Shown: positions 58,641-64,000 of the stretch, piece by piece
How positions within the stretch are numbered: position 1 is the stretch's first letter
Layout of the letters: every line of letters begins with the position of its first letter
Source: Hesseltinella vesiculosa
Lineage: Eukaryota > Mucoromycota > Mucoromycetes > Mucorales > Cunninghamellaceae
Direction: 5' to 3'
Assembly: GCA_002104935.1 (NCBI GenBank)
Contig: MCGT01000018.1
Location: 421,701-485,700, forward strand
Length of the DNA stretch: 64,000 nucleotides
Program-made: the position numbers and the translations under genes
The notes under the pieces: model-generated
Seen by the model: the letters and a program-made list of their open reading frames with translations, nothing else
What the model was told of the DNA's origin: nothing
Database searches by the model: none

Positions 58641-60275
58641 ATGGCAAAGGCAAATGCAAAAAATGCCGAGAGGCAAGTATCCAAGTACTTTTTCCAACGG
58701 TTTCGAGATCGCCGTGATGACACGCCTGAGCGCTTTTTGGGGCAAGTTCGTTCGCCTGAAGCTGTAAAAGACATGCCATCGCAGGAAGCAAGTGACGTAG
58801 ATATGGTCTCGCAAGAAACAATCCACAAAAGCAAACTTGGAGAAGAAGGTGAAGGATTAGGCCCTTTGTTCCATGGGTGGATGAACGATCTCACAATAAA
58901 ACGTGAACGAGCACGTGGCTCACTGGACACCAACGCTGTGGACGATGATTTGAATTTTTTTCTGGACACCTACACGGGCGGGACGAATCAAAAGGACACA
59001 ATGCACCGGTTTGGCAATCCCAGGTTGGCTGTGGCGCTGGAATTAGACAACCAACCAAAGTTGATGAACAGAAACGCCAGTCAACGTGCTTTGCACTTGA
59101 AACGTGAAAAACTCAAGAGAGATGCCCGAGCGGATCTCATCGCCATGATTGATGAATGCCTGCCTCACCGCCGACTTTCCTCCTCACCGTCAAGGGATCT
59201 AATCGCTGAGCCGTCATCAACAGCAATCTTGCATGGACAAACTCTCTGCGACATCCTTCCGGGGTCTTCCAAGAAACGACTTGCGGCAGAATTGGACGAG
59301 CAACCGGCAAAACGACGGTTCACTGAGCCCACGGCGGATGTCAATGCCAAGCCTGCCAAAGCGATTCAAAAATTGGTTCCTCGTCATACTAACGCACGCC
59401 GTTCCAAAGCACCCTGTACAAAACCAGTGACTTCTACCCCATCACCATCCAATGACAAACTGGTTAGGTCCTCCGTCTCTCCTGTACTCGTTCGCTCCTC
59501 GTACTTTGCTCGAATCGAAAAGCCTGCCCCTGTCATAGCTACCTATGTCAAGGATCCAGTGCTGGCCAGAGCAATATCGCACAAGAAGCCTGTTCCTGAC
59601 AAAAAAACTTCCCTCGCCATGAAAACTGTACGAGCCAAAGCATTCGACACCGGTGCTGCTGGCCCTTCCAAACCATTTCAATTTAAAATCGATGCTCCCT
59701 CCAAACGTGTCCCAGCAAAGAAGCATGCCCCAGCGTCGGTCATGATCGCCAATACCAGTAACAAAGAAACATCTGGCACCAAGAAGCCTGTACCAGCTAA
59801 AAGTGACCAGCTCAGGAAACCAGCTCCAGTCAGAACTATCCCCAAAGTTGGCCCCACCAAGGGAAGGCATTCCAAAACTGGTCTGATCAAAAAACCCCTG
59901 CCTCCCAAGAAGACTACACCTGGTGTCAAAAAACCTGTTCCAGCCATAGTTACATCTACCAAGAAGGAGCTCTCAGCCATGCATGCCATCTCCAACGCCG
60001 GCCCTTTTACAGCTGATCATGGCAAGAAGTCTGCGCCTGCTAAGAAACTCGATCGGGCCAAAACTCCGCCTACCGAGACACCAGTTCTTGCCAAACCTGC
60101 CACCAGTATCAGCAAGCAAGTAGGAAGGGCCGTGACACGAGCAATGGCTCGAGCTCAGGTAGTACCAGATGACGAACCAGTACCAGCCATCGAGAAACCA
60201 ATTCAGCGACCTCCAAAACGAAAATATGCACTCCAGCAAAAGGATCCAAACGCTGTACACTTTATCCAAAAATGA
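58641..60275 (+). CDS. Lys/Pro/Ala-rich basic protein of unknown function
   Basis: From the ATG at 58641 a single exon encodes 544 residues. Residues 1-60 are charged and helical (RQVSKYFFQRFRDRRDDTPERF). The next 150 contain short conserved-looking segments (GPLFHGWMNDLTIKRERARG, DDDLNFFLDTY). From about residue 230 the chain is built of degenerate KKPVPAK-type units, as in histone H1 tails or microtubule-binding regions, and ends DPNAVHFIQK. The composition suggests a nuclear or chromatin/spindle-associated basic protein. I recognise no family. A longer frame upstream (from 58518) is broken by a T-run and is probably leader or intron. Confidence 0.6.
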   Translation: MAKANAKNAERQVSKYFFQRFRDRRDDTPERFLGQVRSPEAVKDMPSQEASDVDMVSQETIHKSKLGEEGEGLGPLFHGWMNDLTIKRERARGSLDTNAVDDDLNFFLDTYTGGTNQKDTMHRFGNPRLAVALELDNQPKLMNRNASQRALHLKREKLKRDARADLIAMIDECLPHRRLSSSPSRDLIAEPSSTAILHGQTLCDILPGSSKKRLAAELDEQPAKRRFTEPTADVNAKPAKAIQKLVPRHTNARRSKAPCTKPVTSTPSPSNDKLVRSSVSPVLVRSSYFARIEKPAPVIATYVKDPVLARAISHKKPVPDKKTSLAMKTVRAKAFDTGAAGPSKPFQFKIDAPSKRVPAKKHAPASVMIANTSNKETSGTKKPVPAKSDQLRKPAPVRTIPKVGPTKGRHSKTGLIKKPLPPKKTTPGVKKPVPAIVTSTKKELSAMHAISNAGPFTADHGKKSAPAKKLDRAKTPPTETPVLAKPATSISKQVGRAVTRAMARAQVVPDDEPVPAIEKPIQRPPKRKYALQQKDPNAVHFIQK

Positions 60276-60778
60276 ATGTCGGAATACCAAAATAACGAAG
60301 TCGTGAAATAACAAAATCAAAAAAAAGTCGCATTGTCGTGCATCAATTGTGGTGATGAGCACCAAGAGAGAAAAAAAACCGAAGAGTGGAGCTATAATAT
60401 TTAAGGCATAAGTGTCAGCCTGAAGCAACTAAACCTTATACTTGAGATGGACGTGGTACTCACGAAGGCGAAAGGGAGCATGCAGTATCAACCAAAAGAA
60501 ACACCGCTAAGAATAAATAAAAATCGAACGGTGAGTGACGAAAGTGATGCTTGGCTATTCCACGAGAGTGAAGCTTACAATACAAGAGGGAAAGGCAGAG
60601 CCGTGTACAAAGGGAAGGAAATGTTAGTTCATACTCTTCGATATGGTTTGAAAATTTACCCTAAATAAAAAGGTAAGGAATCTGCCTTGTCTTTTCTCAT
60701 CTTTCTTACCAAGGACAGACAAAGACGCCTTTGTCGTCTACATTTGAAAGGTGTAAAATTGAAATCTTCGGGATTTCA
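60276..60778. other. Gene-free stretch just downstream of the Fanzor stop codon
   Basis: About 500 bases lie between the basic-protein gene and the Fanzor stop. A 73-codon plus-strand frame (60447-60668) has no recognisable motif. In the TnpB/Fanzor superfamily the guide RNA is usually encoded at or just beyond the 3' end of the nuclease gene on the same strand, so this is where such an RNA would be sought. Confidence 0.4.
60718..60735 (-). other. Perfect 7-bp hairpin downstream of Fanzor
   Basis: GACAAAG-ACGC-CTTTGTC forms a seven-pair stem with a four-base loop, 44 bases after the Fanzor stop on the minus strand. It could be part of a guide-RNA scaffold or 3' end signal. A looser pair, GGTAAG at 60672-60677 and CTTACC at 60705-60710, lies beside it. 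Confidence 0.35.
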
Positions 60779-63700
60779 TCAATGGTTCATTGACTTGGTG
60801 AAAACTTCGGGACGAGGTTGCTTCTCTTGTTCCAAATATCCCAGGTGCAGAATGTTTTTGGCTGCCGACTTGTCCCGGTTCCAATGGCGTTGGCAAATGT
60901 AGCATGTCTTTACAGACCAGAGGGAAACCGCGGAATCGGTCAAAGGGTCAAGAACTCGCGCAAGCGACAGAGATTGCGTGTGGCAGGCACAGCATACCTA
61001 AAACCAAGACACTTGTTATGAGCAGCTATTCTTCCCGCCACCCCAGTTCTGTCTTACTTGACTTGTAAAGCTTTCATTGACCACGCAGACAAGCAGCCGT
61101 CCTTCCAACTCGGCTTGCTTGAGTTTTGGCATAATTGACATGCGCGTTTTTTTCCCCTTCAGTGTGAAGCCGAACACACCAGAGCCCATCATGACCAGGG
61201 GTATTCTTGAAAAGGGTATTTTTTTACTGAATAAAAAAATAAAGATTGACGTCAATCTCCGTTATCCCCCCCCCTCTCTCTTTTTTACCATTCATACTTA
61301 CAGTACGTCATGTTCTTTATATTTTTTGCCACCAAACGCAAAGATGTTCACCATCTCATCCAGGACTTTTTGCTTAGAGACATAGGCCAAAAAGCGCGCA
61401 TTGGTAAAGGATGAGCCATAAAATTGGTAAAGCACAGGCAGGGTCTCGCACAGCGACTGGCAATACGATGTCCATCTGGTCGATGACACCGTTTTTTTCG
61501 TTGGCAGGCTGTTGAGTGCAATGTTCATCCCAGACTCGGTGGTTGACAGCTGGCGGTGGTATCGACGTTTTTTATACCCGGATTTGGCGTAAAATTCGTT
61601 GTTTGTGAATCGAAGGCAATTTTTTTCGGAATCCACTGCTGTGAAGGGCACCGTGTGCCCTGGGTCAACACCATAGGACCAAAATTCCACCATGTCGTTG
61701 TCATCCAAGTCACTCATGACGAGATCAGGCAGGCGCTCTCGGCTTTTCCGTTCGCACAGGAATTCCAGGGTATGGCCATCGGTTCGTACAAGGTTCCTGA
61801 ATGCTATTTTGTTCCCTTCAGGGGGCACATCCACATCATACGACCCCAGAGATTCTCGGCTAGGGAAACAAAAAGATTACCACGATGCCCGCTTTTTTTT
61901 TTCTATTCACCTGCCCAAGCTTACCACTGCTCCAGTCGGACCTTTTTGAAATCCAACGAAGTCCAAAATACCAGGAACTTCTTCTTGATCTTTTGATAGT
62001 CAGAAAGAACCGGCTGTCTGGGTCGTCCTCGTCTGGATGGTTCGTCGTTAGGGCCGTCCATTGCCACAGGATTGCCGACGAACAAATAATCTTCGTATCG
62101 AGGTTGTGCACCTGCTTGGTCGAAAATCCGGGCCAGACACTGGGCATCCAGAGTCACAAACTTGCGCGTGAATCGAAGAGCAGGCAGCAGGGTATACATT
62201 TTTGTGACATGCATTGTTGAAGCTGTTGTCGTTCTGAAGCATACTGACGTGTCGATCATATACCGTCCATTCAGGAATTGGCGTGACAACGAGAGTTGTT
62301 CACGGGTTCTTGTTACCAATGTTGTCATTCCACTGCGAAGATAATCGCCAAGCTTTGGGCCAAATCTGACAGGCATCGTCGGATGGTTGACCATTTTGAA
62401 AAACGCACGGACAAGGCGGTTTTGCTGCCGGCGGCCCAGATCATTGAATTGGTCCAAACGCGTAAGCAGCTCCCAGCAGCTCTTGTTGTCAGCATAGTCG
62501 ACGATTGTTTCTTCGCTCACTACACCAGTGGCTGCATTATTGTAGGCTTCCATTTCAGCTATTTTTATTTTTTGGAGGAGGAAGAGATGAGTCCTATTTC
62601 CTTTGACACAATTGAGCCTCTTTTTACGCCCTTACCAAGGAATCCATACACGACGGGCAAGTATAAGTTAAACTTGGCTGTTAGATTTTCCAAATTCACA
62701 GGCGTCGGCCCTAGGGTCACATTGGAAATCACTGACGCCACAGCATCTTGCCAGGAAGCATGTGCATACGTAGGAGTTGCTGGTTCGCTGTCAGTCCCGC
62801 AGAGAGTGTCGTAGGCAAATGACACCAATTTCTTCAACGATTTTTTAGTTGGCTTTTCCTGTTAAGAGGCAAAGAGGGAGAGTTGTTTAGTTCCTGTCTT
62901 CTTTTCCCTCGCAACTTACATTGGCTGGAATCAAAGATCGGAATTTGAACGCCAAGAAGGTTCGGCAGCGAGGTTCAAATGATTCAGCCAGGCCATTCTT
63001 GACCGCTGTGGCTAGGGTCTTGGCCATATGAGCGTACGTTTGGGAATAGCCAGGTAACGGTTGAACTGTTGGGAGATCCGCGGTTTCGAATGATTGGACA
63101 TATGCGTGAAAAATGGATTCTGTGTCTTGGGGGAGGTTCGGATTTTGATTTGTGATGTGACCACCAAGCAGCAACTGCATAACGCCATAAATGTAATCTT
63201 GCGAGCCAAAATGGAGAGGGATTGGCTCAGAACCTTCCAACAGTGTCAGAGCATGATGTTGGGTAAAAAGCATGGCTTTGATCGACAGATCCCGCACATG
63301 GTCGACAACGACGTTCACTTCTTGCATCACATTTGCTTTGGCACGCATTCGCTGCCGTCTGGAATGGCCATAGCATCGCAGGGCATGCTTCAGAGAACAG
63401 CGACGGACAAAAGGGGTGTGGTTTGGACCAATGATGTTGCCCAGAACATCGTCCACATTGGTTTTATGGGCGTGGCAGAGGTGGCTGGCAGCATTTCCGT
63501 GGTGCTCGCACGCGTCATTGCTTCCGTCCGGGAGAATGCAGTGTGAGCATCGGGGAACGTTGGGATTGGCCCGGGCGGCGTCCAATTGCCGTTAGCCTGC
63601 TCTTCTCCCTTGTCTGTTCTGCTGTCTCACAACTGCTTGGGTTGGTGCCCCATAATGTCCTAGCAGCCAAAAAAAAAAAAAACCAGTCAGATATTTCGTT

Positions 63701-63953
63701 TGACCAATGCTTGTCATGTCAACTTACTGTTGAATGGGCAGAGCCGGGAACGACCATCCACATGATCTGTCCTTCCGCATCTGGCACAGGGTGTTCTGCC
63801 TGAATGTATTGAAACAAAGCATTCTGTTAGCTGTCCCTTATTCTGGAGCAAGATCTCACCTTGTCGCTCTTGTTCTTCCTCTCTTTCAATTTTGCGCCGT
63901 TTTAGACCCTCCAAATAGGCTCTTTGTTGTAGAATGGTTTGGGGACATTGCAT
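60779..63953 (-). CDS. Fanzor (eukaryotic TnpB-like RNA-guided nuclease), with one in-frame TAA
   Basis: Eight exons keep one frame over 896 codons: 63860-63953, 63728-63799, 62920-63659, 62636-62858, 61925-62558, 61302-61859, 61058-61205, 60779-60997. The N-terminus has a zinc-knuckle (CARCGRTDH..CPFN) and a Cys/His-rich block (CSHC..CEHHG..HLCHAH). The C-terminal RuvC nuclease shows WSYGVDPG (Asp653), VVNESFTSQ (Glu818) and WNRDKSAAKNI (Asp865). A zinc ribbon has VCCACH and CYICQ, the arrangement of IS605 OrfB/TnpB proteins. The strand IPLVMMGSGVFG lacks the usual TnpB glutamate, so Glu818 is the candidate, as reported for Fanzors. A TAA at 63592-63594 (codon 78) interrupts the frame; the next in-frame ATG (63346-63348) would leave 736 residues with the whole nuclease part. 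The 5' flank and any terminal repeats fall outside the window. Confidence 0.85.
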
Positions 63954-64000
63954 AACTACAAGAATAAGGTGAACAAAGTCGAAAGGTAAATGCGTGAAGG

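Follow-up and report, generated by a model that had tools for sequence, protein, structure and literature searches.

In eukaryotes, TnpB and Cas12 have counterparts in the Fanzors, a kind of RNA-guided DNA endonuclease. In those of the Fanzor1 type, the glutamate of RuvC II has been repositioned to six residues ahead of the zinc ribbon, according to the part of Yoon et al. that was consulted (PMC10711439). The occurrence of Fanzor1 in Mariner-type elements and in Mucorales is known already, and the accessible portion of Bao and Jurka (2013; PMC3627910) lists Fanzor1 from Rhizopus, Phycomyces and Mucor, one element of each being assigned to MuDR, with 9-bp duplications, and not to Mariner. For the Spu-1 elements of Spizellomyces punctatus, which encode SpuFz1, the consulted sections of the main report (PMC10432273) give CATA as the target-adjacent motif (TAM), a conserved CA outside the left repeat, and an RNA that spans a 75-nt region including the right repeat and extends 14–15 nt into the flank; in our own reading, the CA of the left flank is part of the CATA motif. 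A structure has been solved for PpFz1, a Fanzor1 of the fungus Parasitella parasitica (PMC11423790, seen in part). Here we describe a Fanzor1 gene in a 64-kb stretch of DNA from Hesseltinella vesiculosa (Mucorales), referred to below as the window, which closes contig C10 in an assembly of 27.05 Mb and 85 contigs; all genome searches covered this assembly. The gene is very probably the only recognisable gene of a recently amplified, non-autonomous Tc1/mariner-like transposon bounded by terminal inverted repeats (TIRs).

A preliminary description of the locus had raised the possibility of an unreported Mucoromycota Fanzor. This stands only in a weak form, given the Mucorales Fanzor1 genes listed in 2013, the PpFz1 structure (both sources known to us in part), and two H. 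vesiculosa proteins, P0001 and P0002, already in the databases. A search of the open-access literature, with incomplete coverage and unreadable supplements, returned no paper on Fanzors in Hesseltinella. What is new is this member of the group, its set of copies, a TAM prediction, and a sister element with two Fanzor genes. The nuclease itself adds a further large Fanzor1 to those known and does not make a new class.

Gene model and catalytic motifs

The gene lies on the minus strand and runs from an ATG at window position 63953 to a TGA at 60779 (stop codon, 60779..60781). The model has eight exons, at 63860..63953, 63728..63799, 62920..63659, 62636..62858, 61925..62558, 61302..61859, 61058..61226 and 60779..60997, with GT..AG borders at all seven introns as read from the sequence, and so has the same exon number and the same ends as had been proposed before. 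Exon 2 specifies an N-terminal, zinc-knuckle-like CxxC...H...C motif. Further downstream, GVDPG, VVNESFTSQ, CCAC, CYIC and NRDKSAAKNI follow one another in the Fanzor order. By our joins, the acidic residues of the RuvC site are D653 in GVDPG (RuvC I, exon 6, 61658..61672), E825 in VVNESFTSQ (exon 7, 61058..61084) and D872 in NRDKSAAKNI (RuvC III, exon 8, 60851..60880), and the C4 zinc ribbon CCAC ... CYIC is specified by 60893..60994 of exon 8, the exon that matches PF07282. As in other Fanzor1 proteins, the first aspartate sits in a DPG motif, six residues separate E825 from the first ribbon cysteine (C832), and the cysteine pairs C832/C835 and C862/C865 precede D872 (x-RD). The earlier numbering agreed for Asp653, while Glu818 and Asp865 were each seven residues short; this offset fits an exon-7 acceptor that had been set 21 nt too far downstream, and the longer exon-7 join (KKIPFSRIPLV) is present in the database model of P0001.

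The spliced protein of an intact copy (L009) matched Pfam PF07282 with E = 9.2e-7, above the cut-off. A profile built from five database relatives (A2) recovered SpuFz1 at E = 1e-5, and one that added the window's own exons and those of another five Fanzor loci in this genome (A5) matched SpuFz1 (1.3e-19), PpFz1 (7e-12) and mimivirus L79 (1.5e-6); a single-sequence search gave E = 0.77 only. The D/E/D and C4 columns line up, D383/E541/D606 of SpuFz1 corresponding to D653/E825/D872, and the four best Protein Data Bank matches of a second proxy model in Foldseek were all SpuFz1 entries (E from 1.3e-6 to 1.1e-5). By motif and profile evidence, the window gene is a Fanzor1 with a RuvC triad and a C4 zinc ribbon. 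The Fanzor identity that had been read from the sequence by eye, including the triad and the ribbon, was thus borne out by profile comparison with the TnpB/Fanzor family and by alignment with known fungal Fanzors.

A bacterial TnpB, present through contamination or recent transfer, has a vanishingly small probability and was rejected. It would account for weak, below-cut-off matches to NCBIfam TnpB families, but not for the seven introns with GT-AG borders, for the dozen or so copies bounded by TIRs, or for the DPG motif and the glutamate in its Fanzor position. The five database relatives, moreover, all come from Mucorales, the order to which Mucor belongs. Further database searches for homologues gave P0001 and P0002 only, and none of 24 pattern matches in viral contigs was confirmed as a viral relative.

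The element, its copies and its ends

The window holds the right (gene-3') 3.75 kb of a 4.24-kb element in minus orientation (60256..64000), which continues for about 0.5 kb past the end of the contig. Twelve other copies share 98.7–99.4% identity with it. In ten of these the match ends at window position 60251–60256, with unrelated DNA beyond, and the other two are cut by contig ends. Whole copies measure 4.24–4.28 kb. Thirteen genomic stretches match the 140-residue RuvC-exon query over 111 or more residues with ≥95% identity; since several are half copies at contig ends, and since L015 and L029 share their right flank, we estimate that there are about a dozen near-identical physical copies. 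Contigs C1, C4, C10, C11, C29, C34, C45, C46, C54 and C72 all end in or beside an element copy, and copy counts are uncertain because the assembly breaks at these copies.

The right TIR occupies 60258..60281 on the minus strand, reading inwards TA-CACTTTATCCAAAAATGAATGTCG, and is preceded by a TA (60256..60257) that is probably a target-site duplication. The right ends that were read have the form GTG|TA, except in one copy (FC) of a second family, family B, where TA follows GTT. The TIR is imperfect, 26 bp long, and its left and right versions are identical at 19/26 positions, the same figure as between the right end and L036, a Tc1-type DDE-transposase element of the genome. After the initial TACA, 15 of 22 positions agree, a level that random TACA-anchored pairs taken from the window attain with a frequency of 1.5e-4; this null holds for both comparisons. 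TA is found on both sides in four of the six copies of the window family (family A) with both ends read (L013, L014, L021 and L029) and in two of three such family-B copies. No other gene was seen by eye in the roughly 0.56 kb before and 0.52 kb after the Fanzor gene, and the element appears to have no DDE transposase gene of its own, these parts being too short for one. Helitron or IS607 ends are not supported, the ends being TIRs, mostly with TA. An IS607 or IS200/605 TnpB element was also rejected, the gene having eight exons and the same flanking parts showing no sign of TnpA by eye.

A Tc1/mariner transposase likely mobilises the element in trans, because an element of this type has ends that match those of the Fanzor element, because the two kinds of element can abut, and because such transposases are abundant. 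DDE_3 is matched at least 164 times in the six-frame translation of the genome, and a 439-amino-acid DDE_3 protein lies inside the element whose end agrees with the Fanzor right end at 19/26. The TIR pattern occurs 223 times genome-wide against 91 for the reversed control. At four of 12 family-A left ends (L021, L029, L041 and L042), the Fanzor element abuts the terminal TA of a Tc1-type element with a DDE transposase; none of 11 right ends does so. Two other arrangements of Tc1-type or similar ends were observed. The locus L037 (C1:934822-937917) consists of tandem units of about 775 bp, of Tc1 type and with DDE_3 fragments, in which neighbours share the intervening TA. At C6:563338-566242 and C26:55599-58506 there are pairs of identical inverted ends, TACAGTTATTTCAAAAAATAAAAGTCG, about 2.9 kb apart and resembling the Fanzor TIR.

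As it stands in the assembly, the window copy is probably dead because of an in-frame TAA at codon 78, in exon 3 and upstream of the catalytic part (63592..63594, minus strand). Its catalytic part (exons 6–8) is free of stops and frameshifts, as had been stated, but an open frame does not hold for the whole gene, and the suggestion that the core could be active fails for this copy as assembled. The stop is unique to the window copy among the 11 copies in which that codon is readable, and it may be an assembly error, since the copy ends exactly where contig C10 does. Compared with L009, exon 1 also contains one inserted nucleotide, for which an upstream ATG compensates. Four of the eight copies with all exons readable are fully intact (L009, L013, L014 and L015), L011 keeps an open frame with its exon-5 splice acceptor lost, and L010 and L021 each contain a frameshift. 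In the copy behind P0001 (L029, contig C23), exons 6 and 7 contain small indels, and the P0001 gene model skips part of the RuvC exon, so this entry is not reliable as a Fanzor sequence. Across ten pairs of five copies, the ratio of nonsynonymous to synonymous polymorphism (pN/pS) was 0.23–0.71, a range that points to maintenance of protein function while the element amplified.

It is rather probable that the window copy is a relic, with nothing functional left at the locus. The codon-78 stop, found in this copy alone, and the damage in L010, L011 and L021 fit such a state. If the stop and the compensated insertion are set aside, however, the frame and all splice sites are intact, the sequence may be unreliable at the contig end, and guide RNA could still come from a copy that makes no protein, as the accessible text suggests for the ghost copies of S. 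punctatus (PMC10432273).

The neighbouring open reading frame (58641..60275, plus strand) specifies a low-complexity protein of 544 amino acids without a Pfam family over the cut-off. The insertion overlaps the 3' end of this frame, whose last codons and stop fall inside the right repeat. In their left flanks, L011 and the family-B copy FA are inserted at the edge of tandem repeat arrays of 80 bp and about 335 bp, respectively.

Candidate guide RNA and target-adjacent motif

Between the gene and the right repeat lies a conserved non-coding block (60330..60450, minus strand), which is a candidate omega-RNA scaffold on the basis of its conservation. It recurs in a gene-less 'ghost' copy of 579 bp (L030, C1:188048-188626), which retains the two ends together with some 330 bp of 3' non-coding sequence (79–85% identity). 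In bins of 40 bp, the block is 84–97% identical in this ghost and in the remnant L039, and 72–85% identical in the remnant L038.

Just outside the left (gene-5') end, TTTA is present in 8 of 16 copies, comprising 12 of family A and four of family B (L009, L011, L013, L014, L016, L019, L021, L029, L031, L032, L041, L042, FA, FB, FC and L040); the ghost, which has CTTT, and L023 were left out of the count. Read inwards from the right end, TTTA occurs in none of 18 (11 of family A and seven of family B, with L015 and L029 counted once on account of their common right flank and contig ends; Fisher p = 7e-4 against the left). Among the left ends with TA, TTTA makes up 8/13, compared with 12.5% of NNTA in the window background (p = 4e-5). 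Since TTTA is seen at left ends only and never at right ends, we predict with moderate confidence that the TAM is 5'-TTTA.

Alternatively, the transposase may insert preferentially at TTTA, or the motif may come from T-rich tracts by splice acceptors, in neither case being a TAM; we consider this quite possible, if short of an even chance. The left flanks of L013, L016, L032 and FA are long pyrimidine tracts, and TTTA also stands at 2 of 20 TIR ends elsewhere in the genome, hand-picked among the roughly 100 listed of the 223 pattern matches. A symmetric preference, on the other hand, predicts TAAA at right ends equally often, and it was seen at 0/18.

With 5'-TTTA as the probable TAM, the following sequence of events may be envisaged. 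A Tc1/mariner DDE transposase would move the ends in trans, and intact copies would make a Fanzor1 protein with an active RuvC site. A short RNA, transcribed from the 3' non-coding region through the right repeat and into the flank, would serve as omega-RNA plus guide, by homology with SpuFz1. The complex would cut the empty site, that is, flank sequence preceded by the TAM, and repair from the copy still holding the element would keep the element in place. The window copy itself is probably not a source of working protein, and its 3' non-coding end could still supply guide RNA.

Several observations weigh against parts of this account. The proxy structure models are of low confidence (predicted local distance difference test scores of 38 and 51) and represent a 54%-identical relative, and the window copy itself is broken. 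No transposase gene with exactly the ends of the Fanzor element was found. Two of the six family-A copies (L009 and L011) lack TA at the left, and no empty site turned up that would prove the TA duplication; that search used the joined flanks of nine copies and gave 85 matches, with 40 of 93 first-look candidates scored, and the longest junction overlap, of 27 bases, involved the right flank of the copy itself, where the end of the element resembles the left flank. For the guide RNA, the candidate region had no Rfam match above threshold, the 331-nt 3' region folded no better than its shuffles (z = -0.15; between -1.80 and 1.28 for six sub-regions), and RNAalifold gave compensatory changes at 0 of 18 pairs, with an unfavourable covariation term. 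Most of the data in favour of the TTTA rule are those from which it was derived, the three left ends read afterwards being one TTTA and two TGTA, and the contrast with other TIR ends is the weaker one (p = 0.011).

These negative results for the guide RNA (Rfam, folding and covariation) would be expected if the Fanzor gene were mere cargo, captured by a Tc1/mariner derivative and without a part in keeping or spreading the element, and a DDE transposase fully explains the ends and the TA. We nevertheless find this distinctly unlikely, as pN/pS is below 1 in all ten pairs, a one-sided TTTA bias is unexpected from a symmetric transposase, and the gene-less copy has retained the conserved non-coding block.

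Family B and comparison with described Fanzors

The genome has a heavy Fanzor load for its 27 Mb, distributed over several families, with 104 six-frame matches to the RuvC exon and 89 matches to the zinc-ribbon family (PF07282) at E ≤ 0.01. Family B is 60% identical to the window family and has the same type of ends, and forms an 8.2-kb element with two tandem Fanzor genes. One copy (C12:458755-466975, L033 and L024) has two divergent Fanzor1 genes in tandem, and in a second on the same contig (C12:1090396-1098613) the genes are likewise side by side. Searches with the zinc ribbon and the RuvC exon placed both genes next to each other at five loci (C12 twice, C15, C41 and C59), and alignment revealed a further copy of the 8.2-kb element on C13. 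The upstream gene has its own GIDPG, NEFWTSQ, C4 and DRD motifs. Ahead of NEFWTSQ, copy FA carries an in-frame stop; at the same place the frame is shifted in FC and open in FB, so that the upstream gene is broken in at least two of the three copies looked at. A literature search with the phrase 'two Fanzor', in open-access sources of incomplete coverage, found no paper, and to our knowledge such an element has not been described before. At least one other Fanzor family (L043/L044) resides in a different type of element, without Tc1-type ends.

Taken jointly, these features would allow a wider proposal, in which the TTTA footprint of a symmetric, TA-inserting transposon, confined to the end opposite the guide, reflects RNA-guided retention and the Fanzor, besides the transposase, decides which insertions persist, family B is possibly a two-nuclease system, and gene-less copies, still holding the end for the guide RNA, use the protein in trans. 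We regard this combination as rather doubtful, and the damage to the upstream gene in two or more family-B copies argues against the two-nuclease part. With intact near-identical copies, a ghost, candidate DDE helpers and a predicted TAM, the question of what a Fanzor does for its element becomes testable in a filamentous fungus.

Among described elements, the PUl-4-like Mariner-type elements are similar in holding a Fanzor1 gene only, in their Mariner-like TIRs and in their TA duplications, and differ in host, as far as the consulted part of PMC3627910 describes them. PpFz1 is a Fanzor1 of a related fungus and belongs to the same profile family (E = 7e-12); sequence similarity is only distant, and, compared with the available part of its description (PMC11423790), the window gene probably lacks the FRI insert, since D653 and E825 are 172 residues apart, close to the 158 between D383 and E541 of SpuFz1. 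The nearest database entries are from H. vesiculosa itself. P0001 (DM01DRAFT_1370827) is another copy of the window family (91% by the database model) and P0002 (DM01DRAFT_1408636) a member of the 54% family; their records carry 'hypothetical' or 'Cas12f1-like TNB domain' and not Fanzor, and the annotated exons of P0001 omit part of the RuvC region.

SpuFz1 is encoded by a single open reading frame and is roughly 640 amino acids long, whereas the window family has 900 amino acids in eight exons. The TIR is 26 bp in the Hesseltinella element and 30 bp in Spu-1, as given in the consulted text, and in Hesseltinella, where the system is known from sequence alone, one ghost copy only was found. In other respects the two systems are much alike. 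The D/E/D residues can be aligned between the two proteins. According to the accessible part of the Spu-1 report (PMC10432273), both have a Fanzor1 gene alone between inverted repeats, in many copies, with gene-less ghost copies and no transposase found within the repeats. By our reading of the conserved CA, the left ends show comparable patterns as well, CATA in Spu-1 and TTTA here.

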